A stretch of 64,000 nucleotides of DNA from an uncultured Sphingomonadaceae bacterium (lineage in GTDB: Bacteria; Pseudomonadota; Alphaproteobacteria; Sphingomonadales; Sphingomonadaceae). The notes beneath the pieces are model-generated. The model had not been told where the DNA came from. It did no database searches and saw nothing but the letters and a program-made list of their open reading frames with translations. The stretch lies in the NCBI GenBank assembly GCA_947501325.1, contig CANMVC010000001.1:434001-498000 (forward strand), in the 5' to 3' direction. Positions 1 to 17,226 of the stretch are shown in pieces. The position numbers were made by a program, and so were the translations under genes. How positions within the stretch are numbered: the first letter of the stretch is position 1; every line of letters starts with the position of its first letter.

Positions 1-351
1 GGCGTCTTCACTGGCATCCTGGTGTCGGCGGTCAGCGGTTCCGGCGCGATTATTGAGCCGTGCCTCTACTGGCCCGACGCATCCAACCCGATCCATGCGG
101 CGACCATAGAACCGGCGCATTTTGCCAAGCTACCGACATTGGAAGCCAATAGCGCCGCATGGGAACTGACCCGGAAGCTGAAACAGGCGCTGGTTGACCT
201 GTTTCATGATCAGGGTGCGGCGCATCTGCAGATAGCGAAGACCTATCGTTACCGCGACAGCCTGGACCCCGCCGCCGATGCGTTGCTGCAGGACCTGAAA
301 AAAGCCGTTGATCCAAAGGGACTTATGAATCCGGGATCGCTCGGTCTATAG
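1..351 (+). CDS. FAD-linked oxidase, C-terminal part (cut by window start)
   Basis: The frame is open from base 1, so only the last ~116 residues are present. They end in VDPKGLMNPGSLGL, the usual closing motif of the FAD-linked oxidase C-terminal domain (GlcD / vanillyl-alcohol-oxidase type), which closes over the flavin and substrate. The FAD-binding half lies outside the window, so the substrate cannot be judged. The nitrilase-like gene starts 7 bases after the stop, so the two are probably co-transcribed. Family call from the terminal motif; the role in the neighbouring pathway is inference. Confidence 0.6.
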   Translation, partial: GVFTGILVSAVSGSGAIIEPCLYWPDASNPIHAATIEPAHFAKLPTLEANSAAWELTRKLKQALVDLFHDQGAAHLQIAKTYRYRDSLDPAADALLQDLKKAVDPKGLMNPGSLGL

Positions 352-357
352 TGTAGG

Positions 358-1512
358 ATGGATTTTGACCGCAGACAGATGATGGCCGCAGCGCTTTGTG
401 CCGCTGTCGCATCACCTGTTTCGGCCTCGACCGGAAAATATGATAAAGAAAAGACCATGACCGAAACCAAAAACTATGCCGCCGTCGCGATGCAACTGGC
501 TGCGCGTTCGATTGAAAAAACACCGGACAAGGCCGCGGCCCGCGCGCAGATGCTGGCGATGATTGGAGAGATCGAGACAAAGATCCGTTCCGCCACGATC
601 TTCGTCCAGCAATATAGCGGCAGTCCGGTCAAACTGGTGGTGTTGCCGGAATATCTGCTGACCAGCTATCCCGGGCGCATTTCCATTCCCGATTTTGCCG
701 ACAAGGCTGCACTGGAAGTGGACGGCCCGGAATATGAGGCGCTGGGCGCGATGGCACAGCGGCTGAAAATGTTCATTGCCGGCAATGCCTATGAAGTCGA
801 CGCCAATTTCCCCGGCCTCTATTTCCAGGCCAGTTTCGTGGTCGCGCCATCGGGCGATGTGGTGCTGCGCTATCGCCGGCTCAATTCCATGTTCGCGCCG
901 ACGCCGCATGATGTGTGGACGAAATATCTCGATATTTACGGCCTCGACGGCGTGTTCCCGGTAGCGAAGACGAAGATTGGCAATCTTTCTGCCATCGCCT
1001 CGGAAGAGATACTCTATCCCGAAATAGCCCGCGCCCATGCGCTGCGCGGTGCCGAGATTTTCGTGCACAGCTCTTCGGAAATAGGCTCCCCGCTCGACAC
1101 GCCCAAGGATATTGGCAAACGCGCGCGGGCGCAGGAAAATATGGCCTATGTCGTCTCCGCCAACACGGCGGGCATAGAAAACACCACCCTGCCGCTCGCT
1201 TCGGCCGATGGCAACAGCATGGTCGTGGACTATAAAGGCCGGGTGATGGCGGAATCGAATAGCGGCGAGACCTTTACCGCTTTTGCCGATATCGATCTGG
1301 GTGCCTTGCGCGCCGCACGCCGCAAACCGGCAATGACCAATTTCCTTGCGCGCCAGCGACTGGAGCTTTTTGCGGCCACTTATGGTAATTTGTCCGTACA
1401 AAAAGCCGATGGTTTGATTCAGAACAATGACATCATCTCTCCGGACCGCGACTATTTTCTGCGTACCCAGGAAGAAACCATCGAACGCATGATAAAGGAG
1501 GGCTTGATATGA
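358..1512 (+). CDS. Nitrilase-superfamily protein lacking catalytic Cys and Lys
   Basis: Carbon-nitrogen hydrolase fold, 384 aa. The catalytic Glu is present (E98 in VVLPEYLL). The lysine position of the usual YRK motif is Arg (R174 in RYRRLN), and the nucleophile position is Ser (S215 in AIASEEILYPE, where family members have I-C-x-E/D). The C-terminal part of the fold is intact, so this looks like a maintained, non-canonical member and not a decayed gene. The N-terminus MDFDRRQMMAAAL...SPVSAS resembles a Tat-type signal; an internal ATG at 457 would give a cytoplasmic form. The stop overlaps the next start as ATGA, indicating an operon. Normal amidase or nitrilase activity should not be assumed. 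Confidence 0.75.
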   Translation: MDFDRRQMMAAALCAAVASPVSASTGKYDKEKTMTETKNYAAVAMQLAARSIEKTPDKAAARAQMLAMIGEIETKIRSATIFVQQYSGSPVKLVVLPEYLLTSYPGRISIPDFADKAALEVDGPEYEALGAMAQRLKMFIAGNAYEVDANFPGLYFQASFVVAPSGDVVLRYRRLNSMFAPTPHDVWTKYLDIYGLDGVFPVAKTKIGNLSAIASEEILYPEIARAHALRGAEIFVHSSSEIGSPLDTPKDIGKRARAQENMAYVVSANTAGIENTTLPLASADGNSMVVDYKGRVMAESNSGETFTAFADIDLGALRAARRKPAMTNFLARQRLELFAATYGNLSVQKADGLIQNNDIISPDRDYFLRTQEETIERMIKEGLI

Positions 1513-2750
1513 GCACCACACCGACCGAGCAAAAACTCGACGTCGCACCGCCCTATAATGCGGTAGCACGTCATGGCGTTTCGCCCGAACCATCGCATGA
1601 CGAGATTGCGCGCTTTGATTTTCTCGCCAATTTCAACAAATTCCTTTCCGGCGCGCTCGGCCCGGGCAACAAACTTGCCTATGACCGACGCGTCCTGCCG
1701 GCTTTTCTGAAGGAACATGGCCGGGAACCGCAGGACCGTTTCGAGATCCGCCGCGCGATGAACAAGGATCCCTTCCATAAATTCTGGTCCGCGCTCAAAC
1801 GCAATTCGATGGAGATGCGCCAGCAAAATGGGCGGTCCATGGTGCTGCGCCAGATTGACGAACTGAATGCCAGGGCCCGGCAATTTAATGAAGGCCGTGA
1901 TACATTGGAACTCAACCCGGAAATCGACGTGCCGCGCTACCAGTCGGCCGTCGATATCCACTGCATGCCCGGCAGCTATCATGGCGAAGAGCTGCCCGGT
2001 GATGTCTCGGCAGGCGCCAATTATGATTGCGGTATCTTTGCCACCACCGCCGGCGGCCTTGGCGCGCTGTCCGATGGCGGCGGGCAGGCGCTGGTGGAAT
2101 GGATCAAGAAGGAACGCCCCGGCTGGGAACCCAGACGTGTACTCGATATCGGGACCACGGTTGGTCATAATATCGTACCGCTGGCGCTGGCTTTTCCCAA
2201 TACGGAATTTATCGCCATCGATACGGCTGCGCCCATTTTGCGTTACGCCCATGCCCGCGCGCAATCACTCGGTGCGACCAATATCACATTCATTCAGGCC
2301 AATGCCGAAGATTTATCGCGCTGGGACGATGGCACATTTGACTGGGTCCAGACCACCATGTTCCTGCATGAAACCAGCGGCAAGGCGCTGCCCCGGATTA
2401 TCGCAGAGGGCTATCGCGTGCTTGCTGATGGCGGCCTGATGTTCCATCTCGAACAACCGGAATACTCCGATGCCATGCCGCTTTACGAGCAATTTATCCG
2501 CGACTGGGATGCGTTTAACAATAACGAACCCTTCTGGTCCTCGATGCACGCGCTCGATATGAAAACTGTCATGGTTGAAGCCGGATTTGACCGGGCAGAG
2601 CTGTTTGAAAGCGGAGTCAGGGCAGTGGTCGATACGGATATCTTCCCCGAGGCCGCGACCGGTGACGATGAAGATCATGGCCGGGCGGCCTATTGGCATG
2701 CCTATGGCGCATGGAAAAATAGCGATCAGATGCAACACGCGGCGGAGTGA
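1509..2750 (+). CDS. SAM-dependent methyltransferase with long N-terminal domain (copy 1)
   Basis: Class I methyltransferase, 413 aa. The SAM-binding motif I is VLDIGTTVGH (211-220), followed by the acidic strand end FIAIDTAAP and a motif VLADGGLMFHLE typical of the UbiE/COQ5-like fold. About 200 residues precede motif I, including HCMPGSY at 151-157; the same domain precedes the methyltransferase at 5943-7130, so both copies belong to one subfamily. The start overlaps the nitrilase stop (ATGA). A small helical protein follows after 3 bases, the same pairing as in copy 2. The methyl acceptor is not evident from sequence. Confidence 0.85.
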   Translation: MSTTPTEQKLDVAPPYNAVARHGVSPEPSHDEIARFDFLANFNKFLSGALGPGNKLAYDRRVLPAFLKEHGREPQDRFEIRRAMNKDPFHKFWSALKRNSMEMRQQNGRSMVLRQIDELNARARQFNEGRDTLELNPEIDVPRYQSAVDIHCMPGSYHGEELPGDVSAGANYDCGIFATTAGGLGALSDGGGQALVEWIKKERPGWEPRRVLDIGTTVGHNIVPLALAFPNTEFIAIDTAAPILRYAHARAQSLGATNITFIQANAEDLSRWDDGTFDWVQTTMFLHETSGKALPRIIAEGYRVLADGGLMFHLEQPEYSDAMPLYEQFIRDWDAFNNNEPFWSSMHALDMKTVMVEAGFDRAELFESGVRAVVDTDIFPEAATGDDEDHGRAAYWHAYGAWKNSDQMQHAAE

Positions 2751-2753
2751 ATC

Positions 2754-3116
2754 ATGGCTGAAGAAAATTTCGACTGGATGGCCGCGGCCAATAAAAAGGC
2801 CAAAGGCAAACGTCCGGAATATTTTGACGATCCCGAAGACGAACGGATGCTGTCGATCCTGATGGCCGTGGTCGGCGAAGTGTCTGTGCTGCGCGAGCGG
2901 ATGGATACGGTCGAACGGCTGCTCGAAGCCAAGGGGTCAATCAACCGTGCGGATATTGAAAGCTACACGCCCGACAAACAGGCCGCCTATGAGCGCGGCG
3001 CGATGATCCGCGAATATATTTATCGCGTCATGCGCGGCCCGCATCAGATGGTTCAGGAACTGGAACAAAGCGAACCGCCCGTCGAAGAAGTCAGCCGGGA
3101 ACTGAAGGAAATCTAG
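2754..3116 (+). CDS. Small helical protein paired with methyltransferase (copy 1)
   Basis: 120 aa, acidic, no signal peptide or membrane segment, probably all helix with a coiled-coil stretch around MLSILMAVVGEVSVLRERMD (about 31-50). The piece FDDPEDERMLSILMAVVGEV resembles FDDPGMDRFVAVVMNMAQEM in the small protein at 5665-5973, and both sit directly downstream of a methyltransferase of the same subfamily. GGAG lies 6 bases before the ATG, inside the methyltransferase gene, so expression is coupled. I know no function for this family; a partner or accessory subunit of the methyltransferase is the simplest inference. Confidence 0.75.
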   Translation: MAEENFDWMAAANKKAKGKRPEYFDDPEDERMLSILMAVVGEVSVLRERMDTVERLLEAKGSINRADIESYTPDKQAAYERGAMIREYIYRVMRGPHQMVQELEQSEPPVEEVSRELKEI

Positions 3117-3128
3117 CAGCGCAAACCG

Positions 3129-3821
3129 CTAAAAAGGCTTCACCGCCCCCAGGAAACAGACGCCCGCAATCGTGATCCAGTAGATATAGGCGGCAATCCG
3201 GGCCTGCCCGATTTCCCGTTCGAGCGCATTTTCTTCTGCCGCATCGGGACCCTCGGCCAGCTTGCGGAACCGCACGGTCCAGCGGCGCATGACCACGCGC
3301 AGGAACAGACCGATACATAGCGCAAAGGCGTAAAGACCGATTTTGGCGGGATACCAGTGGTTGCCCTCACCCGAGGTAATCGGACCGCTGCCCTCCAGAG
3401 CCATGAACGTGACGATGAACAGAATCGCGATCAAGGGATAGCGCAGCATCTCCTCGATTTTGGTCACCTTGACGCCGATATCGGTTTCACGCTTGATAAA
3501 AGCGGTCCATGTCATCGCGAGCCAGATCGCGAAAAACAGCCACATCCACCAGATTCCCGAACCATCAAGGGAAGGCACAAAACCATAAAGCTTGCCCATA
3601 TGAAGGCCGAGCGGAAGCAACAGGACTATTCCGGTTCGGGCCAATATGTCGATCCGGTAAGCCGTTTCCATATGCCGCCGCCGTTCTTCCAGCGACAGGT
3701 TGCGGTTTGTGACATTATAGCTGGTCTGGAAAACACCCCATTCGCCGCCCAGCCAGTAAACCATCGCCAGAATGTGGATCCAGCGCAAAATGCTCAGTTC
3801 ATTCGTGGTGAGAAATTCCAT
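3129..3821 (-). CDS. Multi-pass membrane protein (PuuD/CopD-like N-terminal helix)
   Basis: About 230 aa with some six hydrophobic segments. The first, ILRWIHILAMVYWLGGEWGVF, has the WIH...W-G pattern seen in PuuD-type and CopD-type membrane proteins, where the His can bind a metal or heme. I chose the ATG at 3821 because GGGAGGA precedes it; the open frame runs further upstream but through the promoter region. It diverges from the gene at 3931 across a perfect palindrome and converges with the small-protein gene 12 bases away. Function unknown; a membrane electron carrier or oxidase partner is possible. Confidence 0.65.
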   Translation of the reverse strand: MEFLTTNELSILRWIHILAMVYWLGGEWGVFQTSYNVTNRNLSLEERRRHMETAYRIDILARTGIVLLLPLGLHMGKLYGFVPSLDGSGIWWMWLFFAIWLAMTWTAFIKRETDIGVKVTKIEEMLRYPLIAILFIVTFMALEGSGPITSGEGNHWYPAKIGLYAFALCIGLFLRVVMRRWTVRFRKLAEGPDAAEENALEREIGQARIAAYIYWITIAGVCFLGAVKPF

Positions 3822-3859
3822 TACCAACGTCCTCCCAGACCGTGTAAATAACTGATTGT

Positions 3860-3877: not shown

Positions 3878-3930
3878 CCTCTTGGCAAGAGAAAAATGCA
3901 CTGGCATGAAGAAAGACAAGGAGAAACGGG

Positions 3931-4659
3931 ATGAAGCATCGCATTATCGAAGGCCGTCTGGAATATACGTCGCGCAAACCGGAAATGGAGGGCCAGAATC
4001 GCGGTTTTGAAACCTTCATGTTTACCCATCATAGCGACGGCAAGGTGACGATGCGGGCGCATTGCGAGATTTACGATCCGGAACCGACCGTGATGCGCGA
4101 CATCATTTACGCCATTGACGAGCATAAGCAGCCGATGGACTGCCACGTCCGGCTGACCGTTGGCGATGAATTTATGGGGTCAGGCTGGATGCGGTTTGAT
4201 GGCAGTCATGTCGAAATGGAATCCTATGGCCCCGCCATCGGGCGGCTGTCCCAGCGGGTCGCAGCAGAGTTACCGCTCGACGGTTTTGGCACCCATCCGA
4301 TTGTGTCGGACGGCTATATGCTCTCGACCAAGGACTGGGACAAGGAAACCAAGCGACTGCTCAATTGCTATCTGCCCTCACCCGATCACCGCGGAGCCAC
4401 GCCGCCACAAATTGCGCAGGTGAAGATCGGCGCGATCTATCTCGGCAAGGAAGAGGTCACCGTCCCTGCCGGTACCTTTCAATGCAAACATCTGCAATTT
4501 GTCGATGATGCCAGCATCGTTCCGGGAACCGGCGGCATGGCGGGCGAGCATCCCGCCTATGATGTATGGATTACCGACGACGAAGACGGCCTGTTCGTGC
4601 AAGGCGGCGTCGGCGGCTATATGATGACCTGGTACGAGCTGGTCGAACTCAAACGGTAA
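3931..4659 (+). CDS. Conserved hypothetical protein, beta-rich (DUF3108-like pattern)
   Basis: 242 aa, no signal peptide. Many alternating hydrophobic strands suggest a beta-barrel or lipocalin-like fold; the segment VTVPAGTFQCKHLQF followed by YDVWITDDEDGLFVQ resembles the closing half of DUF3108-type proteins, but that match is weak. The start has GGAG 7 bases upstream, and the promoter region carries operator site 1, which ties the gene to the locus. Its 3' end overlaps the convergent MDR gene by 11 bases. I cannot assign a function. Confidence 0.65.
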   Translation: MKHRIIEGRLEYTSRKPEMEGQNRGFETFMFTHHSDGKVTMRAHCEIYDPEPTVMRDIIYAIDEHKQPMDCHVRLTVGDEFMGSGWMRFDGSHVEMESYGPAIGRLSQRVAAELPLDGFGTHPIVSDGYMLSTKDWDKETKRLLNCYLPSPDHRGATPPQIAQVKIGAIYLGKEEVTVPAGTFQCKHLQFVDDASIVPGTGGMAGEHPAYDVWITDDEDGLFVQGGVGGYMMTWYELVELKR

Positions 4660-5668
4660 TCATCACCTTGCCCATATGGCTGCCGCTTTCCAGATGCGTG
4701 AAAGCGGCCGGCGCATCATTGAAATCGAACACGCTTTCGACCAGCAGCTCGATATTGTTTTGCGCGACCACATCCAGTGCCTGCTGCAACATTGCACGAT
4801 TGCCGGACGCGATACCCTTGATGGCGATATTCTTGCCGATCAGCGCGCCCTGACTGGCACTGGCTTGATCCTGCGGCGTTCCGGAAAGCGCGCCCAATGT
4901 GCCGATACGCGCATTGACGGCGCACGCCGCCACGGTCTCGCCCAGCGCCGGAAAGCCCAATGTGTCGACAACCACATCTGCGCCGCGCCCGCCGGTGGCT
5001 TCCAGCAGTGCGGCGCCCCAATCCGGCCGGTCGCGATAGTTGATCCCGTAATCCGCACCCATTTCCTTTGCGCGCGCCAGTTTTTCCTCGCTCGACGAGG
5101 TGATCGCGAAATCCATACCCATGGCCTTGGCCAGCTGCAGCGCGAATATGGACACTCCGCCGGTGCCTTGCGCGAGGACAAGATCGCCCGGCCCCGCATC
5201 ACCAAAGGCGATCATCGCATGCCAGACCGTGCTGCCGACCACCGAAAAGGTCGCCGCACTGCTGTCACTGACATTTTCAGGCACAATGATAGCGGCATTC
5301 GCCGGCAAGATGATTTTCTCGGCCAGCCAGCCATTGGCCGTCACGCCCAGATCGCCGGCAAATACCGCGAAGCTATAGGCCCCATCGAGCCAGGTGGTAA
5401 AATGCGGCGCCATCACACGCGTGCCCACTTCAAGCCCCGAAACATCAGCACCAACAGCCTCGATCACGCCGACACCGTCGGACAATGGCACGCGATCTTC
5501 GGGCAATTCCGTACCATAATCGCCCCGCAACACCATCAGGTCCCGATAGTTGAGACCGGCGGCCGACACCTTCACCAGTATTTCTCCGGGGCCCGGCTCC
5601 GGTTCCGGATGGTCGGCCAGCTGCAATCCGCCAATGCCGGTTCGTGATCCGATTTGCCAAGCCTTCAT
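4649..5668 (-). CDS. Zinc-independent MDR alcohol dehydrogenase / quinone oxidoreductase family
   Basis: 339 aa medium-chain dehydrogenase/reductase. The N-terminal GroES-like half contains AAGLNYRDLMVLRGDYG, the quinone-oxidoreductase type of motif without zinc ligands, and the Rossmann half has the nucleotide-binding AQGTGGVSIFALQLAKAMG. It probably uses NAD(P)H to reduce an enone or quinone-like intermediate. It is the last gene of the leftward transcript that starts near 11160; its start overlaps the stop of the small-protein gene at 5665. The 3' end overlaps the convergent gene at 3931-4659. Family call is firm, substrate unknown. Confidence 0.85.
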   Translation of the reverse strand: MKAWQIGSRTGIGGLQLADHPEPEPGPGEILVKVSAAGLNYRDLMVLRGDYGTELPEDRVPLSDGVGVIEAVGADVSGLEVGTRVMAPHFTTWLDGAYSFAVFAGDLGVTANGWLAEKIILPANAAIIVPENVSDSSAATFSVVGSTVWHAMIAFGDAGPGDLVLAQGTGGVSIFALQLAKAMGMDFAITSSSEEKLARAKEMGADYGINYRDRPDWGAALLEATGGRGADVVVDTLGFPALGETVAACAVNARIGTLGALSGTPQDQASASQGALIGKNIAIKGIASGNRAMLQQALDVVAQNNIELLVESVFDFNDAPAAFTHLESGSHMGKVMITV

Positions 5669-5973
5669 GCGTTGTCACTCCCTTGTTCGCGCAGCGGCGC
5701 AAAAATGCGGTCGATAAATATTTTCAGTTTCGCTTCCCGATCGGCCTCGGACGCCTGCAACCCTTCGAGCGCCATCAGCCGCTCTTCCTGAACCCACATT
5801 TCCTGCGCCATATTCATCACAACGGCGACGAAGCGGTCCATGCCGGGGTCGTCGAAAAATTTTGGTTTGCCGTCCGGACCATAGATGTCCTTGGGCGTGT
5901 CGTCGGGTTTAAATGCCGGACCCGGATTTGCGGTTTCGCCGCTCACCGTTTCCATGCTCCGAAACCGAACCAC
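5665..5973 (-). CDS. Small helical protein paired with methyltransferase (copy 2)
   Basis: 102 aa from a GTG with GAAGG six bases upstream; an ATG at 5955 with a closely spaced GGAG is the alternative. Both starts lie inside or beside the end of the methyltransferase gene, so the genes overlap. The FDDP-x-x-DR motif and the following helix match the small protein at 2754-3116. No membrane segment or signal peptide. Function unknown; the repeated linkage to the same methyltransferase subfamily suggests a partner protein. Confidence 0.7.
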   Translation of the reverse strand: MVRFRSMETVSGETANPGPAFKPDDTPKDIYGPDGKPKFFDDPGMDRFVAVVMNMAQEMWVQEERLMALEGLQASEADREAKLKIFIDRIFAPLREQGSDNA

Positions 5974-7130
5974 ATAATGCCTTCGGCCAGCCGTCCCGTG
6001 GTTTCACTGTCGACCGCATTGGCACTTTCATCCGCAATCGCCTGCGCTACCGCTTCCTCGCCATAGATGCCGATGCTGGGAACGACGAACTGGAAATAGT
6101 CATCCGCCGCAAAGCCCCCGGCCTTGCATAATTCGGGCGGGCTTTCGTCGCGATAGCCTTTGTAAAACGGTTCCGAATTATACCAGCTATCCCAGTCGAG
6201 ATAAAAGCCGTCAAAGGCGTTCATCTGGTCATTGGGTGGCAATTCCATGTGGAGCAGCAGACCGCCGGGTTTCAGTACCCGATAGGCTTCCTTAAACGCC
6301 GCGGCGCGGGCCTTTTTCGACAATTCGTGCAGGAACATCGAGGAAAAGACGAGGTCAAAACTGGCGTCGGGATAGTCCAGTGCATCGGCCGACATTTGCG
6401 CAAAATGGACTTCCTGACCCTGCATTTTTGCGCGCGCCGAGGCATAGCGCAGACCGCCAGCCGCCGCGTCAATCGCCTCGACCTTTGCGTCGGGATAGGC
6501 CCGTTTCCACGGCAATGTATTGTGCCCAATGGTGCAACCCGTATCGAGAATGCTCTGCGGCTGAAAGTCCGGGAATTTGCCCTTCACATAGGCGGCCATG
6601 GACAGGCCAATATCATCCAGATTGGCGCCCATCAGACCCATGGAAAACACCGCCAGCCCCTGATCATAGACCGCGCCGGCCTCCAGCGTCGCACCGCCGC
6701 GCGTATAGCTGCCCGGCATCAGATGCACTTCGATCGCATCGACATTGCGGGGAATATCGAGATCAGGGTCCAAGTCTACAGAGCCGGGCCGTTCGGCAAC
6801 TTTGGCGGCCTCTGCTTCCAGCCGTTCGATATCGCGGGCCACCACGTCTCCCGATGCCTGCCAGACCATTTTTTGCGCCTGCACCCGCACGGCCGAATAG
6901 ATGTTGAACGCCGGATCACCGCGGAGCGCCAGATGCGCTTCGTTGCTGGTTTCCGGCGCGCGGCCTGTTTCGCGGGCAAAGGCCGGGGCCGCACGCTTGT
7001 CATAGGCGGTGCGCAAGTCTCCGGCGAGATCATTGAGAATGAACGCCCGGATACCGGATACAAAGCGCCCGCGGGCCGCTTCTTCCGCCGTCAGTTCCGG
7101 TTTCATCGGATGTTGTAGTTCCACGCCCAT
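5943..7130 (-). CDS. SAM-dependent methyltransferase with long N-terminal domain (copy 2)
   Basis: 395 aa class I methyltransferase, motif I SILDTGCTIGHN (193-204), acidic strand end KVEAIDAAAG, and VLKPGGLLLHMELPP later. The ~190-residue N-terminal region, including EVHLMPGSY (134-142), corresponds to that of the copy at 1509-2750, so this is a divergent paralogue. The start overlaps the aldehyde dehydrogenase stop by one base (TGATG). Two methyltransferases of one subfamily in one locus could methylate different positions of a compound or work as a heteromer; neither is shown by the sequence. Confidence 0.85.
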   Translation of the reverse strand: MGVELQHPMKPELTAEEAARGRFVSGIRAFILNDLAGDLRTAYDKRAAPAFARETGRAPETSNEAHLALRGDPAFNIYSAVRVQAQKMVWQASGDVVARDIERLEAEAAKVAERPGSVDLDPDLDIPRNVDAIEVHLMPGSYTRGGATLEAGAVYDQGLAVFSMGLMGANLDDIGLSMAAYVKGKFPDFQPQSILDTGCTIGHNTLPWKRAYPDAKVEAIDAAAGGLRYASARAKMQGQEVHFAQMSADALDYPDASFDLVFSSMFLHELSKKARAAAFKEAYRVLKPGGLLLHMELPPNDQMNAFDGFYLDWDSWYNSEPFYKGYRDESPPELCKAGGFAADDYFQFVVPSIGIYGEEAVAQAIADESANAVDSETTGRLAEGIMWFGFGAWKR

Positions 7131-9586: not shown

Positions 9587-10480
9587 TCATAACACGCCTC
9601 CCGCTTGTTTGCGGAAGGCATCAACAATATCGCCAGCTTTGGTAATCCATGCTCTGCCATCCGCTGCAATATGTTCCAGCACCGTCTCAAACGGTCCAAT
9701 CCGGTGGGGTTGGCCAATTAAATAACTGTGCAGCGGGATACACATCACCGTGCCGGATTGCGCGCCTTCTTCAGCGAGCCGATCATATTGCCGGATCAGC
9801 GTATCGGCATAGTCCCGGGCGCTCATATTATAGATGAAAAAGCCATAATGATCATTGACCTCTAGGCTGTAAGGTATCGCCGTCAGCTGACCCGATTTCA
9901 CCTTCACATCCGTGGGTTGATCATCATGATAAAGGTCGCAGGTATAGTCCATGCCATATTCCGCGACCAGGTCGAGTGTGCGCGGCGTATGGGTGAGTGC
10001 CGGAGCCAGCCAGCCCCTGATCCGTTGACCCGTCGCGCGTTCCACGGTCGAAATCGAATCCTCGATAATTGCGCGCTCCTGCGCTTCGTCCATTCCATAT
10101 GAATAGCGGGTATTGTAAATGCCGTGGCTGAAAAATTCCCAGCCGCGCTGGTTGGCATCGTCGACCACTTCAGGAATATGATCGCAAAGCGCGACAGACA
10201 AGCTCACCGAACCGGGGAACCCATGCTTAGTCATCATTTCCGCCATCCGCCAATGCGATACGCGATTGGCATGATCGCGATGGCTATAACCAACCACATC
10301 GGGATGCGGCTTTGCCCAGCTTTTACGATGCGGATTAACTGCCGGGTCGAGTTCGTAACATTCGAGATTGGGAGCGACCCAAACGGCGCAGGTCTTGCCG
10401 TCCGGCCACTCGATTTTCGGCCGCCCGCGATAGGGCAGATAGTCATATAGTCCCGGATCGGATTTTTGTGCTTCGGACAC
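9587..10480 (-). CDS. Polysaccharide deacetylase family (PuuE-like) hydrolase, copy 2
   Basis: 297 aa, GTG start overlapping the isochorismatase stop by one base (TAGTG). NodB-fold landmarks include GWEFFSHGIYN (motif 2) and IRGWLAPALTHTPRTLDL (motif 3); it shares the PuuE-like layout with the 8548-9471 product but is clearly divergent, so the two probably act on different substrates or form a hetero-oligomer. No signal peptide, so probably cytoplasmic. PuuE itself opens allantoin; the cluster has no recognisable complete purine pathway, so I do not call this allantoinase. Confidence 0.8.
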   Translation of the reverse strand: MSEAQKSDPGLYDYLPYRGRPKIEWPDGKTCAVWVAPNLECYELDPAVNPHRKSWAKPHPDVVGYSHRDHANRVSHWRMAEMMTKHGFPGSVSLSVALCDHIPEVVDDANQRGWEFFSHGIYNTRYSYGMDEAQERAIIEDSISTVERATGQRIRGWLAPALTHTPRTLDLVAEYGMDYTCDLYHDDQPTDVKVKSGQLTAIPYSLEVNDHYGFFIYNMSARDYADTLIRQYDRLAEEGAQSGTVMCIPLHSYLIGQPHRIGPFETVLEHIAADGRAWITKAGDIVDAFRKQAGGVL

Positions 10481-11160
10481 TAGCGCGCCTCCAGCCAGTC
10501 AATCACGGCCTGCACCGGCTCCACATCCGCATATTTCAGCTGCAAATCCGTGAGATTCGCGAAATGATAGCTTTCATGTTTGTCGGCACATGTCTCAATC
10601 GGAACAATGGCCCGGTATCCGTGACTCAGCGCGTCGACTGCCGTTGCGCGAACGCAGCCAGATGTCGAGCCACCGGTCACCACAACGGTATCAACTTTAT
10701 GCCATGTCAAATAGCTCGCCAGTTGTGTTTCAAAAAACGCGCTGGGCATGCGCTTGGTATATTGCAGATCATCGCCATCCACATCGCAGCGCGGATCCAG
10801 TAAATGGCGCTCGCTGTCATATTTGATATTCTGCAGGGAATCTTCTGTATCCGTTCGCGTGCCCCAGACTCCGGCATCTCCGGCGTCGTCCTTATAGGCC
10901 ACACGGCTCCAGATGACTGGCATGCCCCTGGCCCGTGCGAGAGCCGAAATCTGATTGATATAGTCAATCTGCTTCGGATTGGTCTCATAGGCCGTCTTGA
11001 ACATGTCAGTCCGCGTATAAGCCTGCTGCACATCGACATTGACGACGGCGAGCTTATCGCCGAAACCAAATTTCTTTCGCGCGGGATTGCCAATGACTTC
11101 TTCAAAGATTTCCCGTGCGGTGCGGCCATCAGAAACCATTTTTGTGCCGACAAGCGTCAT
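10480..11160 (-). CDS. Isochorismatase-family cysteine amidohydrolase
   Basis: 226 aa with the complete catalytic triad of the N-carbamoylsarcosine/maleamate amidohydrolase group: Asp in VNVDVQQAY (D43), Lys in QYTKRMPSAF (K136) and Cys in GSTSGCVRATAVDA (C169). It should release ammonia from a small amide or carbamoyl compound. First gene of the leftward transcript, with GGAGAGAG upstream of the ATG, and its promoter region contains operator site 2. Its place beside an alpha/beta hydrolase recalls nicotinate-type pathways (deformylase plus maleamate amidohydrolase), but no ring-cleaving dioxygenase of that pathway is visible. Confidence 0.85.
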   Translation of the reverse strand: MTLVGTKMVSDGRTAREIFEEVIGNPARKKFGFGDKLAVVNVDVQQAYTRTDMFKTAYETNPKQIDYINQISALARARGMPVIWSRVAYKDDAGDAGVWGTRTDTEDSLQNIKYDSERHLLDPRCDVDGDDLQYTKRMPSAFFETQLASYLTWHKVDTVVVTGGSTSGCVRATAVDALSHGYRAIVPIETCADKHESYHFANLTDLQLKYADVEPVQAVIDWLEAR

Positions 11161-11245: not shown

Positions 11246-12625
11246 ATGATTACACGCCACTTTATAGACATTGACCAAGGCGGCAACATGCGCCGCGTCC
11301 ATTATCGCAAGGCGGGTAACGGCCCGCCACTGCTTATGGTGCATCAAAGCCCGCGAAGCTCAAAAGAATATGAAGCGCTGATGGAAAAATGGTCTGCTCA
11401 TTTTACCTGTATCGCTCCGGATACCCCGGGTTTTGGGCAATCTGATCCACTTCCCGGCAATCCGGAAATTGCTGAATATGCAGATGCAGCCATCGATTTT
11501 CTCGACGCGCTGGGCATCGCAAAATGTGCCGCCTATGGCTTCCATTCCGGGGGGATAATCCTGGTCACAGCCGTCAAACGCCATCCGACTCGGATCACAA
11601 CTCTGGCAGTCGGCGGTTATGCCATCTGGTCAAAAGAGGAAATGGCGCTTTTTAGTGATCGCTATTTGCCTGAATTCCATCCCTCCGGTTACGGCGAACA
11701 TCTGACATGGTTATGGAACCGGATTTTGGAACAAAGCTGGTTCTTCCCATGGTTTGCAACTGATGATGCGCACCGGCTGTCGGTTGCAAATGATGACCCC
11801 GCACGGGTGGATGCGATTGTTCGCGAAATGCTTGATGCCGGCAATGCCTATCAGGCCGGCTATGGTGCGGTGCTGCGCGCGCCACGTGACATTCCGGCAG
11901 TAGATGCAGATGTCCCACCCTGCCTGATCAGCGCCTATGATGGTGATCCCTTACAAGAACATATTGACCGCCTGGGTGACATGCCTGCGACATGGGCAGC
12001 GAAAAAAGTGACAACAGCGGCGGAGCATCAAGCCGTCAGTCTCGCTCATCTGATGGCGACGGCAACCCCCGTTATCAATCATTTGCCCGAGGCCAGCGAC
12101 GAAGGCTTTGTCACGATCCGTACAGATGACTTTGAGGGGCTTATCCACTGGCGCGGAAAGCGAGGGGCAGAACGCCTCGTCCTCCCTGCCCCGTCCTATG
12201 CTGCTGCAGACAATCAGCCGGCTGAGCAAGTTTCGATTGATTTGCCCGGTCACGGTCTGTCAGACAATTGGACCGGCAATGTGCCTGTCACTTGGGCGTC
12301 CTGGAATGCTGTTATCGATGCCATTGCCCAAGCGCTTGGCACCAATGAGACCATCTATCCAGTGCTACCCGATGGCGATCCGGATCAACTCTATCCGGAT
12401 TTATCGCCTGACCGTTTTGGCAATTATCTCAACATGGCGTGGCAGATTGTGCGCGCGCGCCATATGTTCGCGCCCTGGTACAAGGTCGATGCAGATCACG
12501 CTGTCGCTTTCGACGAACAGCGGCTCAAGCCCGAACATCTCGCCGCCGAGCATCTCGCGCTAATCAACGGCTACAGCGCCAAGCAATATCATATCGCCCT
12601 CCAATCAAGACATAAGGAAATCTAA
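11246..12625 (+). CDS. Alpha/beta hydrolase with His at the nucleophile elbow
   Basis: 459 aa. The first ~250 residues are an alpha/beta hydrolase: oxyanion strand PPLLMVHQSPRSS, then CIAPDTPGFGQSD, then the elbow GFHSG (98-102), where the usual G-x-S-x-G nucleophile position is His100. The later part has a second, degenerate hydrolase-like stretch (VSIDLPGHGLSDNW), so the protein may be two hydrolase halves. The ATG at 11246 is preferred over the TTG at 11225, which lies in the operator; GGAG is close upstream. First gene of the rightward transcript, overlapping the next start (TAATG). Activity uncertain because of the elbow. Confidence 0.75.
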   Translation: MITRHFIDIDQGGNMRRVHYRKAGNGPPLLMVHQSPRSSKEYEALMEKWSAHFTCIAPDTPGFGQSDPLPGNPEIAEYADAAIDFLDALGIAKCAAYGFHSGGIILVTAVKRHPTRITTLAVGGYAIWSKEEMALFSDRYLPEFHPSGYGEHLTWLWNRILEQSWFFPWFATDDAHRLSVANDDPARVDAIVREMLDAGNAYQAGYGAVLRAPRDIPAVDADVPPCLISAYDGDPLQEHIDRLGDMPATWAAKKVTTAAEHQAVSLAHLMATATPVINHLPEASDEGFVTIRTDDFEGLIHWRGKRGAERLVLPAPSYAAADNQPAEQVSIDLPGHGLSDNWTGNVPVTWASWNAVIDAIAQALGTNETIYPVLPDGDPDQLYPDLSPDRFGNYLNMAWQIVRARHMFAPWYKVDADHAVAFDEQRLKPEHLAAEHLALINGYSAKQYHIALQSRHKEI

Positions 12626-13125
12626 TGGGAATCAGAGAAGACATGCCGCTTTTGGCTCGCCACGAAGGCGTTTGGGACGGCAGCTACACCTATTTCAATG
12701 CGCAGAATGAGAAAATTGACGAGCACGCTTCCCGCCTGCTTTGTCGCCTCCCCGATGACGGAGATATCCCGTATCATCAGACCAACCATTATAGCTGGGC
12801 TGACGGCAAAACCGACATTCGTGAATTTCCTGCCGAATATCGCAATAAACGCATATGGTGGGACAATGACCTGATAAAGGGATGGGCGGCCGAAGTACCG
12901 CTAGACGAATATAACCGCACCATGATGTTGTATTGGCAACGGCAAGGTGATCCATCGCTATATCTTTACGAGCAGATCCAGATTTCCGATGACGGCCAGA
13001 ACCGATGCCGGACATGGCACTGGATTCGAAACGGAATGCTCGAAACACGGACGGCCATACAGGAGACTTTTGTGACCAAGGACTGGCGCAGCATTGATGC
13101 GGAAATGGAGGCTGTTTCTGCCTGA
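12625..13125 (+). CDS. Lipocalin-like hypothetical protein (DUF3598-like)
   Basis: 166 aa without signal peptide. The opening MPLLARHEGVWDGSYTYF and repeated short strands rich in aromatic residues resemble DUF3598-type, lipocalin-like beta-barrels that bind small hydrophobic ligands. The start overlaps the hydrolase stop (TAATG), and the end overlaps the LeuC-like gene, so it is an integral part of the operon. A ligand-binding or cyclase-like role is possible; I cannot assign a reaction. Confidence 0.65.
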   Translation: MGIREDMPLLARHEGVWDGSYTYFNAQNEKIDEHASRLLCRLPDDGDIPYHQTNHYSWADGKTDIREFPAEYRNKRIWWDNDLIKGWAAEVPLDEYNRTMMLYWQRQGDPSLYLYEQIQISDDGQNRCRTWHWIRNGMLETRTAIQETFVTKDWRSIDAEMEAVSA

Positions 13126-14503
13126 ACCGACGACGCTCTTTGGCAAATTATGGAATAGCCATGCCGTCGCTGCTTTGCCGGGTGGTGGCACGCTTTTGGC
13201 GATTGACCGCGTATTCCTGCACGAACGGACCGGTGCATCAGCGCTCAATTCGCTGGCGGAAGCGGGGCGAGCAGTGGCCGATCCAGCGCGCGTCTTCGCG
13301 GTGACAGACCATATTGTCGATACCCGACCGGGACGCACCGACAAGACGCTGATGCCCGGCGGGCAGGTTTTCATAACCGAAACGCGGGCAGCGGCAAAAG
13401 CGGCAGGCATTACCCTGTTTGATGTTAACGACTCGGACCAGGGAATTGTCCACGTGATCTCACCAGAGCTGGGCATTGTTCTGCCAGGATGCACACTGGT
13501 AGCGCCCGATAGCCATACCTGTACCCAGGGCGCTTTTGGCGCGCTCGCATGGGGTATTGGTTCGTCGGAAGCCGAGCATGCCATGGCCACCGGAACATTG
13601 CGGCTCAACAAGCCCAAATCCATGCGCGTGCGTTTTTCCGGAGCACTGGCAAAAGGCGTCACTCCCAAGGATATGATCATGACATTGATCGCCCGTCATG
13701 GTGCCGCAGGCGGTAAAGGGCATGCGGTTGAATTTGCCGGACAGGCGGTACAGGCGCTGGACATGGAGGGGCGCATGACCCTTTGCAATATGGCGACGGA
13801 ATTTTCAGCCATGTCGGGGTTCATTGCGCCTGACACGAAAACATTGGCCTATCTTGAAGGTCGGCGATACGCGCCAACCGGCGAAAATTGGGATCGAGCG
13901 ACCCAGAATTGGCGACAGTTGGTCAGCGATGCCAATGCGGCTTTCGACACCGAGATCGAGATCGACGCCAGCGCGATCATTCCCATGATCAGTTGGGGGA
14001 CGAGCCCCGAACATAGTGTTGGCATAAGCGGCGCGGTACCCGACAATGCCAGCGAACGCCCGCTGGAATATATGGCGTTGAAGCCCAAGCAGAAGCTTGC
14101 CGGAACGCCCATCGATGCCGCCTTTATAGGCAGCTGCACCAACAGCCGCCTGTCCGACCTGCGCCGGGCCAGCGCCCTGTTGAAGGGCAAGACCATTGCC
14201 AGCCATGTCAAAGCCATTTGCGTCCCTGGCTCGTCCCGCGTCAAACGCGAAGCCGAAGCCGAGGGCATTGATGCCATCTTCCGCGAGGCCGGATTTGAAT
14301 GGCGGGAAAGCGGCTGTTCCATGTGCTTCTACGCAGGCGGCGAGAGCTTCGATGCGGGATCGCGGGTCATATCGACGACCAATCGCAATTTTGAAAGCCG
14401 CCAGGGGCCAAGTGTCAAAACGCATATCGCCAGCCCCGAAACTGTTGTGGCCAGCGCGCTGGCAGGTGTAATCGCTGATCCAAGGACGTTGCAGGATGGC
14501 TGA
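13097..14503 (+). CDS. Aconitase/LeuC-family hydro-lyase, large subunit
   Basis: 468 aa from ATG. The three cysteines that bind the [4Fe-4S] cluster are present in IGSCTNSRLSD and ESGCSMCFYAGGE, and PDSHTCTQGAFGALAWGIG is the family's substrate region. It forms an enzyme with the small subunit encoded next, which overlaps by 8 bases. The catabolic context and the divergent C-terminal motif (CFYAGGES where LeuC usually has CLAMN) argue for a relative such as citraconate, mesaconate or dimethylmaleate hydratase and against leucine synthesis. The best Shine-Dalgarno (GGAGG, 13107-13111) lies inside this reading, 6 bases before an in-frame CTG at 13118, so the true start may be there. Confidence 0.85.
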   Translation: MRKWRLFLPEPTTLFGKLWNSHAVAALPGGGTLLAIDRVFLHERTGASALNSLAEAGRAVADPARVFAVTDHIVDTRPGRTDKTLMPGGQVFITETRAAAKAAGITLFDVNDSDQGIVHVISPELGIVLPGCTLVAPDSHTCTQGAFGALAWGIGSSEAEHAMATGTLRLNKPKSMRVRFSGALAKGVTPKDMIMTLIARHGAAGGKGHAVEFAGQAVQALDMEGRMTLCNMATEFSAMSGFIAPDTKTLAYLEGRRYAPTGENWDRATQNWRQLVSDANAAFDTEIEIDASAIIPMISWGTSPEHSVGISGAVPDNASERPLEYMALKPKQKLAGTPIDAAFIGSCTNSRLSDLRRASALLKGKTIASHVKAICVPGSSRVKREAEAEGIDAIFREAGFEWRESGCSMCFYAGGESFDAGSRVISTTNRNFESRQGPSVKTHIASPETVVASALAGVIADPRTLQDG

Positions 14504-15113
14504 GCCTTTCACCACTCTCACATCGCTGCCGATGCCCTTGATCCGGGGTAATATTGATACCGATCAGATCATCCCTTCCCGCGAGATGAAGAGCACCGGC
14601 AAAACCGGCCTTGCCGACGGCCTGTTCGCTGGATTGCGCTATACGGCAATTGGCGGCCGTGATCCCGATTCCGGTTTCGTCCTCAACGATCCACATTATG
14701 CTGATAGCCAGATCATTCTCGGCGGTGCCAATTTCGGATGCGGGTCGAGCCGCGAACATGCGGTCTGGGCGCTCGCCGAATATGGCTTCCGGGCCGTCAT
14801 CGCGCCGAGCTTCGCACCGATATTTGCGGGCAATTGCGTGCGCAACGGCATATTGCCAGCTGTTATCGATGCTGACGCGATCACCGTGATAGCAAAGGCG
14901 AATAGCCCGATTACCATCGACTTGCGCGCGCAAACCATTAGGCTCGACGACGATCAAAACTGGTCCTTCCCGATCGATGAAGAAGCCAAAGCGATGTTGC
15001 TCGAGGGACTGGACGCGATCGACCTCAGTTTGAAAATGGCCGCAGACATTGCCACATGGCAAGAGGCCGACCGCGCAAAGCGGCCATGGATATATTTAGG
15101 AGCCAAGCAATGA
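14496..15113 (+). CDS. Aconitase/LeuD-family hydro-lyase, small subunit
   Basis: 205 aa swivel-domain subunit. GNIDTDQIIPSREMKS and LGGANFGCGSSREHAVWAL are the diagnostic LeuD motifs. It overlaps the large-subunit gene by 8 bases and the HMG-CoA-lyase-like gene by 4 (ATGA), so the hydro-lyase and the lyase are made from one message. With the large subunit it should move or add water across a C=C bond of a dicarboxylic acid. Placement with a CoA transferase and a lyase suggests a citramalate-like hydroxy acid as product; that is inference. Confidence 0.87.
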   Translation: MAEPFTTLTSLPMPLIRGNIDTDQIIPSREMKSTGKTGLADGLFAGLRYTAIGGRDPDSGFVLNDPHYADSQIILGGANFGCGSSREHAVWALAEYGFRAVIAPSFAPIFAGNCVRNGILPAVIDADAITVIAKANSPITIDLRAQTIRLDDDQNWSFPIDEEAKAMLLEGLDAIDLSLKMAADIATWQEADRAKRPWIYLGAKQ

Positions 15114-16042
15114 CCTCGTCCGTAACGATCAGCGAAGTTGGACCGCGCGATGGCCTGCAAAGCGTCGATGCCGTCATGCCAACCGCCGCTAAAATGGCCT
15201 GGATCAAGGCCGAGGCCGAAGCCGGTGTCAGCGAGATTGAAGTGGGCAGCTTTGTGCCGCCGTCCCTGCTCCCGCAGATGGCGGACACCGGGGACATTGT
15301 GGCTTATGCGAAGACATTGCCCGGTCTCGATGTCGTTGCCCTGATCCCGAACCTGAAGGGGGCGGAACGTGCCATCGCTGCTGGTGTCGACAAGATGTCG
15401 ATCCCCTTCTCCATGTCCGAAACCCATTCGATCAAGAACGTCCGTAAAGATCATCCCGCCATGCTCGCCGAGATCAAAGCGATTGCCGATCTGGTCGCCG
15501 CACAGCCCGAAGGACAGCGCCCCCATTTTGAGGTGGGCCTGTCCACGGCCTTTGGCTGCACGATCGAAGGGCCGGTCAACGAGGACCAGGTCGCGCGCCT
15601 GGCAGAGGCGGCTATGGCGGCGGGAGTTGCCGAGGTCGGCCTGTCCGACACCACTGGCTATGCCAATCCAGCGCAAGTCACGCGGATGGTGCGCCAGATC
15701 AAGGGCGTGATCGGTAGTGACAAGCTCAACACCCTGCATCTTCACAATACCCGAGGGCTCGGCCTTGCCAATGTCATGGCCGGCCTTGCGGAAGGCATTA
15801 CCACCTTTGACGCCTCCCTTGGCGGTCTCGGCGGCTGTCCCTTTGCACCCGGCGCGTCGGGTAATATTGTCACCGAAGATCTGGTCTTCATGCTCGAAGC
15901 CATGGGCATTGATACCGGCATCAATCTCGACAAGCTGTTGAAAGTCAGAGAGATTATCGCAGAAGCCCTGCCCGGCGAGCCCCTATATGGCTTCACGCCC
16001 GATGCCGGCCTTCCCCTGGGCTTTGAAAAGGCAGCAGCATGA
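15110..16042 (+). CDS. HMG-CoA lyase family (DRE-TIM metallolyase)
   Basis: 310 aa. The TIM-barrel landmarks are ISEVGPRDGLQS near the N-terminus, HLHNTRGLGLAN (metal His pair) and the signature GLGGCPFAPGASGN with the catalytic Cys. Such enzymes split a 3-hydroxy-3-methyl acyl-CoA into acetyl-CoA and a keto acid. The ATG at 15110 has AGGAG eight bases upstream and overlaps the LeuD-like stop; the longer open frame upstream is not needed. The product of the neighbouring CoA transferase is the likely substrate, for example citramalyl-CoA or a homologue. Confidence 0.88.
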   Translation: MTSSVTISEVGPRDGLQSVDAVMPTAAKMAWIKAEAEAGVSEIEVGSFVPPSLLPQMADTGDIVAYAKTLPGLDVVALIPNLKGAERAIAAGVDKMSIPFSMSETHSIKNVRKDHPAMLAEIKAIADLVAAQPEGQRPHFEVGLSTAFGCTIEGPVNEDQVARLAEAAMAAGVAEVGLSDTTGYANPAQVTRMVRQIKGVIGSDKLNTLHLHNTRGLGLANVMAGLAEGITTFDASLGGLGGCPFAPGASGNIVTEDLVFMLEAMGIDTGINLDKLLKVREIIAEALPGEPLYGFTPDAGLPLGFEKAAA

Positions 16043-17226
16043 GCGTTGAACAAACCGGACCCACGCCCCTTGCCGGCCTGAAAGTCATCGAATTCACCCA
16101 TATGGTCATGGGGCCAACAGTCGGTGCAATCCTCGCATCCCTGGGAGCGGAAGTGGTCCGGGTCGAACCGATTGGCGGCGACCGCACCCGCAATTTGGTG
16201 GGCTCCGGCTCTGGCTATTTCCCGATGTACAACCGTCACAAACAGAGCATATCGCTCAACCTGAAAGACCCGGAAGGCCTCGGCATCGCTCGCCAGCTTG
16301 TCGAAGGTGCCGATATTTTGGTCGAAAATTATCGCCCCGGCGCGATGGATCGATTGGGCCTTGGCTATGATGAGCTGAGCAAGGCCAATGAGCGACTGAT
16401 CTATGCGTCGGAAAAAGGCTTCCTCCCGGGACCCTATGAAAACCGCACCGCACTGGATGAAGTCGCCCAGATGATGGGCGGTCTCGCCTATATGACCGGC
16501 CCGCCCGGACAACCGTTGCGCGCTGGCTCCAGCGTCATTGATGTCACCGGCGGCATGTTCGGCGTCATCGCGATCCTGGCGGCGGCCGAAGAACGCCACC
16601 GCACCGGCAAGGGCCAGAAGGTCCAAAGCTCCCTGTTCGAAACGACGGTATACATGATTGGGCAGCACATGGCGCAAATGGCGGTGACCGGCAAAGCCGC
16701 CGATCCGATGCCAGCACGTATCTCGGCCTGGGCGATTTACGATGTATTTCAAACCAAAGACGAACCTATTTTCATCGGCGTCGTCACCGATGCCTTGTGG
16801 GGAAAATTCTGCAAACTGTTCGCACTCGACGAGCTCTGGGCGGATGAAAGCATCCGCGAGAATAATAACCGCGTCGCCGCACGCGACCGCATCATGCCGC
16901 AAATTCGCGACCTGATCGCTGGCTTTGGTCGCGATGCGCTCATCGCCAAACTGGAAGGCACCGGCCTGCCCTTCGCCCCGATTGCGCGGCCGCAGGACAT
17001 GTTCGACGACCCCCATCTCAATGCCAGCGGCGGGCTGGAGCCCGTAACACTCGCAAGTGGCGAACAGACCAAATTGCCTGCGCTCCCGATCGAAATGAAC
17101 GGCGCGCGCCCCTCTGCACCGGCCAAGCTGGCGACTATCGGGGAACATAGTGAAGCGATTTTGACAGAACTCGGCCTGACCCCACAACAGGTCCAGAAGC
17201 TGCGAGAATCTGGCGCAGTGGGTTAG
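16039..17226 (+). CDS. CaiB/BaiF family (class III) CoA transferase
   Basis: 395 aa. The N-terminal motif GLKVIEFTHMVMGPTVGAILASLGAEVVRVE and the catalytic Asp in ALDEVAQMMGG (D140) identify a class III CoA transferase, which passes CoA between carboxylic acids such as succinate and a hydroxy acid. It overlaps the lyase by 4 bases (ATGA) and is the last gene of the rightward transcript. Hydratase, CoA transferase and lyase together form the logic of the mesaconate/citramalate route (hydrate, activate, cleave). A pair of inverted-repeat arms follows the stop. Confidence 0.88.
   Translation: MSVEQTGPTPLAGLKVIEFTHMVMGPTVGAILASLGAEVVRVEPIGGDRTRNLVGSGSGYFPMYNRHKQSISLNLKDPEGLGIARQLVEGADILVENYRPGAMDRLGLGYDELSKANERLIYASEKGFLPGPYENRTALDEVAQMMGGLAYMTGPPGQPLRAGSSVIDVTGGMFGVIAILAAAEERHRTGKGQKVQSSLFETTVYMIGQHMAQMAVTGKAADPMPARISAWAIYDVFQTKDEPIFIGVVTDALWGKFCKLFALDELWADESIRENNNRVAARDRIMPQIRDLIAGFGRDALIAKLEGTGLPFAPIARPQDMFDDPHLNASGGLEPVTLASGEQTKLPALPIEMNGARPSAPAKLATIGEHSEAILTELGLTPQQVQKLRESGAVG

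Follow-up and report, generated by a model that had tools for sequence, protein, structure and literature searches.

The first 17,226 nucleotides of the stretch analysed here (64,000 nucleotides, positions 434001-498000 of contig C1 in the 3.58-Mb genome G000 of an uncultured Sphingomonadaceae bacterium; hereafter the window) belong to a conserved, co-regulated and apparently undescribed catabolic regulon, which we conclude is real. Its genes encode two PuuE-like proteins (PuuA and PuuB), an isochorismatase-family amidase, a LeuC/LeuD pair, a lyase of the 3-hydroxy-3-methylglutaryl-coenzyme A (HMG-CoA) lyase family, a type III CoA-transferase (CaiB), an aldehyde dehydrogenase (ALDH), two methyltransferases (MT1 and MT2), a lipocalin-like protein and a beta-barrel protein, x242 (Table 1). 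We think it very probable that the core chemistry leads from an imide or a similar cyclic amide to the cleavage of an alkylmalate. Our best explanation for the whole is a catabolic regulon acting most likely on imides derived from tetrapyrroles, and we give this explanation an even chance of being correct. A first-pass annotation of the locus had suggested an undescribed set of enzymes that strips nitrogen from amides or rings and then passes a branched C5-C6 acid into central metabolism. The results below support this in part, as an undescribed catabolic set under one operator in which nitrogen removal is followed by the splitting of a branched alkylmalate. Searches of open-access literature on imidases and half-amidases, the plasmid host strain, the gene set itself, bilin lyases, and bilin and chlorophyll degraders turned up no described pathway with this set; nor did they yield a complete bacterial route for the breakdown of plant, algal or blood pigments, or a described one from the pyrrole fragments of chlorophyll to central metabolism.

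Conservation and co-occurrence of the genes

Named genomes (one per species) contain 256 relatives of the lipocalin-like protein, of which the best 80 loci were kept, several of them shortened by contig ends. The nearest are in uncultured Sphingomonadaceae and Sphingorhabdus, followed by Parasphingorhabdus marina. Counting only the best-matching query at each place, the amidase is present in 68 of these best 80 loci, LeuC in 65, LeuD in 64, the lyase in 63, CaiB in 62, PuuB in 60, PuuA and ALDH in 59 each, x242 in 45 and MT1 in 44. The set is therefore not restricted to one strain, the circumstance in which the first-pass annotation would have withdrawn its proposal; it is found in most of the 80 named loci and in dozens of other genomes. 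A Rieske oxygenase gene (18315-19643) gave no match in these counts and was dropped as a member.

A second sample of 296 genomes of the order contains CaiB in 56, PuuB in 47, the methyltransferase family in 42 and x242 in 32. These sets are nearly nested in that order: CaiB is present in 46 of the 47 PuuB genomes, PuuB in 40 of the 42 methyltransferase genomes, and all 32 genomes with x242 also have the other three. From this near-nesting it looks as if imide and alkylmalate breakdown formed the centre of the system, with the methyltransferases as a stage added to it. PuuB and CaiB lie no more than 20 kb apart in 36 of the 46 genomes that have both. We picked ten PuuB genomes in which LeuC or a methyltransferase had not been seen beside PuuB or in which the parts are scattered (G155, G233, G238, five of family f8, G047 and G073); all ten encode a LeuC 61-70% identical to that of the window and another at 45-51%.

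These data bear on the possibility that several unrelated catabolic modules merely lie side by side, which we regard as very unlikely. Gene order does vary among genomes, and some split the parts over different contigs, but the parts co-occur even when unlinked and have one operator in common (see below). In G155, G233 and G238 they are far apart or on different contigs and yet present, including the amidase at 71-72% identity. A general wealth of catabolic genes in the PuuB genomes was rejected as an explanation with LigB, a common catabolic family, as a control (E up to 1e-20). LigB is present in 124 of the 296 genomes and is not enriched among those with PuuB (16 of 47, against 19.7 expected).

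A shared palindromic operator

The operator AATTTGTCCGGACAAATT occurs as a full palindrome in two intergenic regions of the window, each between divergent genes, and weaker copies overlap the second and precede MT1 (Table 1). A shared operator had been proposed in the first-pass annotation without a sequence, and it proves to be real. Three matches are found in the window at three or fewer mismatches, where 0.03 would be expected. A search of the whole genome with the 14-bp core, TTTGTCCGGACAAA, returned three exact and four one-mismatch sites, all within the 42 kb of C1:403972-445237. When two mismatches were tolerated, 30 sites were returned genome-wide against 24 for the reversed control, so that little weight can be given to any but the exact and near-exact ones. 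Copies resembling the operator, which differ from the 14-bp core at two positions but retain an exact TTGTCCGGACAA, extend to C1:398 kb. Among the 80 named-genome loci, TTGTCNNGACAA occurs 126 times in 73 loci, against 0 or 1 occurrence in Markov controls and between 0 and 6 for five control palindromes, and the operator is present in 60 of 62 divergent amidase/hydrolase pairs of the named relatives.

Exact TTGTCNNGACAA was not seen in 11 plasmid stretches, in the G058 or f8 stretches, or in a second methyltransferase cluster of this genome (L034 and L035), and the operator thus belongs to the window's branch of the clusters and not to all relatives. Its regulator may be encoded by the LysR gene nearby or by a GntR-UTRA gene (L171:12368-13147), both of them possible candidates; GntR matches occur in 8 of the 11 plasmid stretches, none of which has the exact site.

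Enzyme families and catalytic motifs

Families were assigned to the window's proteins with Pfam and NCBIfam. PuuA and PuuB, annotated initially as PuuE-like deacetylases, are PuuE homologues, but they score far below the PuuE allantoinase cut-off (89 and 110 bits against 424.6 for TIGR03212) and by this measure are not PuuE orthologues. A C-terminal His (LHSY) is present in PuuB and is kept in the PuuA of Burkholderia, f8 and Arthrobacter; because Thr replaces it in the PuuA of the window and of plasmid pJE1, PuuA in the window's group may be a non-catalytic partner. PuuB is, by family and context, a candidate cyclic imide hydrolase (imidase). The two genes are separated in the window by a perfect 29-bp inverted repeat (9501-9578), which looks like an inserted palindromic element; in some relatives they overlap.

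The gene first described as an amidohydrolase is present, albeit as a member of the isochorismatase family (PF00857, 99 bits). Amidases of this family have an Asp-Lys-Cys catalytic triad, and D43, K136 and the Cys of GGSTSGCV are all in place. Its closest solved relatives are chain 4l07, which we take to be maleamate amidase, and N-carbamoylsarcosine amidohydrolases.

LeuC belongs to the LeuC/LeuD hydro-lyase superfamily, with GSCTN and SGCSMC motifs and the LeuD gene directly after it, but falls below the equivalog cut-off for LeuC of leucine biosynthesis (506 bits against 560 for TIGR00170) while exceeding that of subfamily PRK12466 (656 against 531 bits). Another LeuC-like gene lies at C2:1253346; identity of the window LeuC is 45% to the separate LeuC of this genome and 64% to that of the pJE1 cluster. 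A housekeeping role for the pair in leucine biosynthesis was rejected, a second LeuC being present in this genome and in the ten PuuB genomes tested. The lyase exceeds the cut-off of the HMG-CoA lyase subfamily PRK05692 (283 against 246 bits) and has GPRDGLQ and GGCPFAPG motifs, its substrate being putative. The CoA-transferase is of type III (PF02515, 346 bits) and has an ALDE motif whose Asp is presumably the catalytic residue, although no specific NCBIfam CoA-transferase cut-off was reached. A type I enzyme (PF01144) was rejected, as the genome's two matches sit on another contig. The conserved motifs of ALDH are present.

Nitrilases have a Glu-Lys-Cys triad. In the nitrilase-like protein, as judged from an alignment of the G254 orthologue to NIT2, Glu is retained, Lys is replaced by Arg and Cys by Ser, and these motifs are identical in the five sequences seen (the window, L037, L038, L042 and L085). 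Ordinary amidase activity is doubtful because of these replacements, and the protein may be a pseudoenzyme or have an altered activity.

Related clusters on plasmids

Several plasmids have amidase, PuuB and PuuA in this same order. PuuB relatives occur in 97 plasmid records, in most cases (87) at less than 60% identity. Plasmids pJE1 (of Sphingomonas sp. JE1) and pTomTYG65b carry a second LeuC/LeuD, an isocitrate-lyase-family gene and an acyl-CoA synthetase gene, and an Acidiphilium plasmid rich in insertion sequences has the core together with hydantoinase A/B. In the conjugative Acidiphilium plasmid NZ_CP041720.1 (32410-73264, L056) the core of the pathway lies amid several insertion sequences, which suggests transfer.

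Plasmid p1 of Burkholderia plantarii combines amidase-PuuB-PuuA with LeuC/LeuD-like genes, an isocitrate-lyase-family gene, an acyl-CoA dehydrogenase, a CoA-transferase, an electron-transfer-flavoprotein beta gene and an FAD-binding gene that is probably its alpha counterpart. The CoA-transferase matches succinate-glutarate CoA-transferase at 542 bits (next best 318; curated cut-off 750), and the dehydrogenase matches glutaryl-CoA dehydrogenase Acd, though not as its best match.

Candidate substrates

The substrate was initially considered unreadable from the sequence. We regard tetrapyrrole-derived imides such as hematinic acid as the leading, though unproven, candidate, with a likelihood that we put at or somewhat below even; they are favoured by how CpeT/CpcT is distributed, by the fold of the lipocalin and by the glutarate branch of Burkholderia. 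CpeT/CpcT-family proteins (PF06206) are encoded by 13 of the 296 genomes, and all 13 are among the 47 with PuuB (P 9e-12 if genomes were independent); among 14 named control genomes the family was found in Synechococcus only. In G034, G051, G060 and G066 the gene is within about 3 kb of CaiB, and in the f8 genomes G051 and G066 it adjoins CaiB (L071 and L072). This genome has no CpeT at the Pfam level. Upstream of the window, L170:10290-11099 encodes a protein that can be aligned with the CpeT proteins of f8 (113 residues at 34% identity, E 1e-17 in a search space of the fetched loci only); its gene lies directly behind an operator-like copy and ahead of a flavoprotein gene of the amine-oxidase family, to which one in f8 also belongs. 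In Sphingorhabdus sp. 109 the CpeT-like orthologue (61%) adjoins the lipocalin gene and has its own copy of the operator.

The lipocalin-like protein, modelled from 60 sequences with a predicted local distance difference test (pLDDT) score of 95.1, is matched by Foldseek to BFA1, a Nostoc DUF3598 protein and Ycf58 of Thermosynechococcus, and more weakly to LolA, nitrobindin and lipocalins. The solved structures 2o62 (E 9e-6) and 3bdr (E 1e-5) confirm the fold, with template modelling (TM) scores of 0.58/0.61; Ycf58/3bdr we take to be the bilin lyase CpcS. In Pfam there is a partial DUF3598_N match, at 22.4 bits slightly above the 22-bit cut-off. Bilin lyases of the S/U and T types are lipocalin-like barrels, and a CpcS structure from Thermosynechococcus is cited in passages of PMC10254012. 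Hematinic acid and maleimides are products of tetrapyrrole breakdown, which parts of PMC7318184 report from senescent leaves and lake sediments.

The same core chemistry might instead serve another nitrogenous ring (a plant or algal alkaloid, a pyridine, a lactam or a synthetic imide), the lipocalins being generic carriers; we consider this possible, if rather on the unlikely side. PuuE pairs do lie beside molybdenum-hydroxylase genes in Arthrobacter and beside hydantoinase A/B in Salipiger, Acidiphilium and pJE1, and HxnM of Aspergillus, a cyclic imide hydrolase that opens a nicotinate-derived ring, is related to PuuE by its authors in sections of PMC9304392. Another ring would leave unexplained, however, both the presence of PuuB in 13 of 13 CpeT/CpcT genomes and the glutarate-type CoA-transferase of the Burkholderia variant.

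Several observations weigh against a single regulon for tetrapyrrole imides. None of the enzymes has high identity to a characterised one, and the B. plantarii CoA-transferase stays under its curated cut-off. The genomes, being related, do not count as independent samples. Pairs of the PuuE type are found in very different gene surroundings as well (in Salipiger, Rhizobium, Arthrobacter, Variovorax and Terrarubrum), so the pair alone is not tied to the window's pathway. The f8 clusters L070-L072 are without LeuC/LeuD in the fetched stretch, LeuC being elsewhere in the f8 genomes, and the amidase, also present elsewhere, does not adjoin PuuB in G155 and G233. The exact operator is missing, as described, from the plasmid, G058 and f8 stretches. 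CpeT at the Pfam level is present in only 13 of the 47 PuuB genomes, the L170 homologue on its own matches no Pfam family, and the 11 plasmid stretches (L054-L064) have no CpeT homologue and a lipocalin match in L062 only. Lipocalin-like barrels bind many ligands, and Foldseek places BFA1 above Ycf58 and returns nitrobindin and LolA as well. Beyond the CpeT relatives, no known bilin enzyme (e.g. heme oxygenase) was found among the proteins scanned.

Proposed pathway

Taking tetrapyrrole imides as the preferred substrates, we infer the following reactions and their order. A large nitrogenous ring compound would be imported through TonB receptors and major facilitator superfamily (MFS) transporters, and then oxidised and trimmed by FAD oxidases, VOC proteins, the aldehyde dehydrogenase and alpha/beta hydrolases, a stage at which the methyltransferases would also join. 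The PuuA/PuuB pair would open the resulting cyclic imide, and the amidase would free ammonia from the half-amide to leave a dialkylmaleate. Hydration by the LeuC/LeuD paralogue could then give an alkylmalate with the hydroxyl on the methyl-bearing carbon; CaiB would activate this as its CoA ester, and the HMG-CoA-lyase homologue would cut the ester, as in citramalyl-CoA, to pyruvate and an acyl-CoA. Chemical precedents for the hydration and the cleavage are DmdAB and citramalyl-CoA lyase. Hematinic acid would thus be expected to yield pyruvate and glutaryl-CoA, and methylethylmaleimide pyruvate and butyryl-CoA, with the lipocalin-like proteins binding the pigment or its fragments. In B. plantarii, the isocitrate-lyase-type enzyme may release free glutarate, and cleavage of the hematinic-acid-derived malate to glutarate would account for the glutarate-type transferase. 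This scheme does not account for the methyltransferases and the small proteins paired with them, for the nitrilase homologue with Ser and Arg, or for x242.

More tentatively, and with a chance somewhat below even, the pathway may be part of a system for the complete mineralisation of linear tetrapyrroles (phycobilins, heme bilins or chlorophyll catabolites). Proteins of the bilin-lyase fold would handle the pigment in such a system, and its alkylmaleimide units would end up as ammonia, pyruvate and glutaryl-CoA or butyryl-CoA, all under the one palindromic operator. Chlorophyll is produced and degraded on a scale of 10^12 kg per year, according to a passage in PMC7318184. If the scheme is correct, the genes can be named, each gene of the lower pathway acquires a testable reaction, and the operator allows the whole regulon to be mapped. 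Even without a substrate, a conserved catabolic regulon is defined, with PuuB as a core gene of the named loci.

Extent and surroundings of the locus

The genes of the window are listed in Table 1. The set is present as first annotated, and many neighbours overlap or abut (1509/1512, 7130/7130, 8548/8551, 10480/10480 and 12625/12625), with some corrections. The FAD oxidase family stands, but bases 1-351 are only the end of the gene. Of two methyltransferase/small-protein pairs, one was recovered (1509-3116), MT2 having no adjoining small gene in the window; a small DUF3598-like gene (u156) is next to MT2 in some relatives. The supposed PuuD/CopD-like membrane protein (3129-4019) matches nothing in Pfam or NCBIfam; since the longer reading frame would take in the operator, translation probably begins near 3821. 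The predicted fold of x242, closest to a DUF1849 protein, gave no functional lead.

Table 1. Genes and operator copies in the first 17,226 nucleotides of the window.
Feature	Position	Strand	Remarks
FAD_binding_4 (VAO-type) oxidase, 3' end only	1..351	+	gene is L003:8801-10351 and begins 1.2 kb before the window
CN-hydrolase (nitrilase-like) protein	358..1512	+	Ser and Arg replace catalytic Cys and Lys
Operator, weak copy	1387-1404		3 mismatches; ~105 bp ahead of MT1
MT1, S-adenosylmethionine (SAM)-dependent methyltransferase	1509..2750	+	N-terminal extension of ~200 amino acids
Small MT1 partner, 120 amino acids	2754..3116	+	no Pfam family
Membrane protein	3129..3821	-	no family; open frame extends to 4019, with a likely start near 3821
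Operator AATTTGTCCGGACAAATT	3860-3877		between divergent genes (divergent promoter)
x242, beta barrel	3931..4659	+	DUF3108-like (below cut-off); predicted fold closest to DUF1849 (6ntr)
MDR-family reductase/dehydrogenase	4649..5668	-	
MT2, second SAM-dependent methyltransferase	5943..7130	-	
Aldehyde dehydrogenase, succinic semialdehyde dehydrogenase-like	7130..8551	-	
PuuA, PuuE-like protein	8548..9471	-	Thr at position of the C-terminal His of the PuuB motif
PuuB, PuuE-like; candidate cyclic amide/imide hydrolase	9587..10480	-	
Isochorismatase-family amidase, half-amidase candidate	10480..11160	-	D-K-C triad present
Operator	11208-11239		full palindrome AATTTGTCCGGACAAATT at 11222-11239 and overlapping weaker copy at 11208-11225; between divergent amidase and alpha/beta hydrolase
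Alpha/beta hydrolase	11246..12625	+	open frame from 11225, 466 amino acids; start near 11246 likely
Lipocalin-like DUF3598-type protein	12625..13125	+	fold resembles Ycf58/CpcS
LeuC-like large subunit, putative alkylmaleate hydratase	13094..14503	+	start uncertain
LeuD-like small subunit	14496..15113	+	
HMG-CoA-lyase-family lyase	15110..16042	+	open frame from 15056; start near 15110 likely
Type III (CaiB) CoA-transferase	16039..17226	+	

The unit exceeds its first-pass extent by about 10 kb upstream (L003), where an MFS transporter, a TonB receptor and a LysR regulator precede the FAD oxidase. We give even odds to the locus being the middle and lower portion of a single catabolic regulon that spans about 60 kb. 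Further upstream, C1:388001-424500 (L170 and L171) has operator-like copies, the CpeT-like protein, the amine oxidase, the GntR-UTRA regulator, two further PuuE-like, two MmgE/PrpD-like and two CaiB-like genes and VOC proteins, several of these genes being named by eye from their translations. In the second methyltransferase cluster, C1:350001-378000 (L034 and L035), there are three paralogous methyltransferases, of which one shares 76% identity with MT1. Proteins resembling the small partners, a lipocalin paralogue (54%), MmgE/PrpD, a member of the isocitrate-lyase family and a TonB receptor are also encoded there; without the operator, the cluster is probably a sister pathway. A PycTM (Pycsar effector) family protein is encoded at 24115-25053 of the window.

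The recurrence of methyltransferase paralogues, some with small partners, here and in the second cluster could suggest a biosynthetic cluster with two to five methyltransferases at its core, and the building of a methylated product had been raised in the first-pass annotation. We consider this highly improbable. TonB receptors, MFS transporters, ring and other hydrolases, the CoA-transferase and other acyl-CoA-forming enzymes, and the lyase point to breakdown; the proteins scanned included no recognisable enzyme for building a scaffold; and five f8 genomes, G047 and G073 have PuuB and CaiB without a methyltransferase match.

Comparison with known systems

The lipocalin-like protein resembles the phycobilin lyases CpcS, CpcT and CpeT in its barrel, and relatives of the CpeT family occur in sister clusters. 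Its role in the window's group would differ, being binding and not attachment; no phycobiliprotein is known from these bacteria.

An imidase and a half-amidase reportedly feature in work on Blastobacter and Pseudomonas. In the cyclic imide/half-amide pathway of Aspergillus (HxnM/HxnN), as set out in portions of PMC9304392, a hydrolase of the polysaccharide-deacetylase fold opens the imide and an amidase then frees ammonia, as is proposed for the window. The window differs in having a tandem pair of hydrolases closer to PuuE allantoinase and an amidase of the isochorismatase family, and its product is proposed to proceed to alkylmalate cleavage.

The fermentation of nicotinate ends with dimethylmaleate hydratase, DmdAB, and a dimethylmalate lyase. 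A LeuC/LeuD-family hydratase is likewise proposed to act on an alkylmaleate in the window, followed by C-C cleavage to pyruvate, and in pJE1 and B. plantarii a member of the isocitrate-lyase family is encoded close to LeuC/LeuD; the window, in contrast, has a CoA-transferase and an HMG-CoA-lyase homologue in place of the free-acid lyase. Chloroflexus has an R-citramalyl-CoA lyase and a succinyl-CoA:citramalate CoA-transferase, and the window shares with this system a CaiB-type transferase and a lyase of the HMGL family, to which it adds a LeuC/LeuD paralogue and a proposed hydrolysis of the imide.

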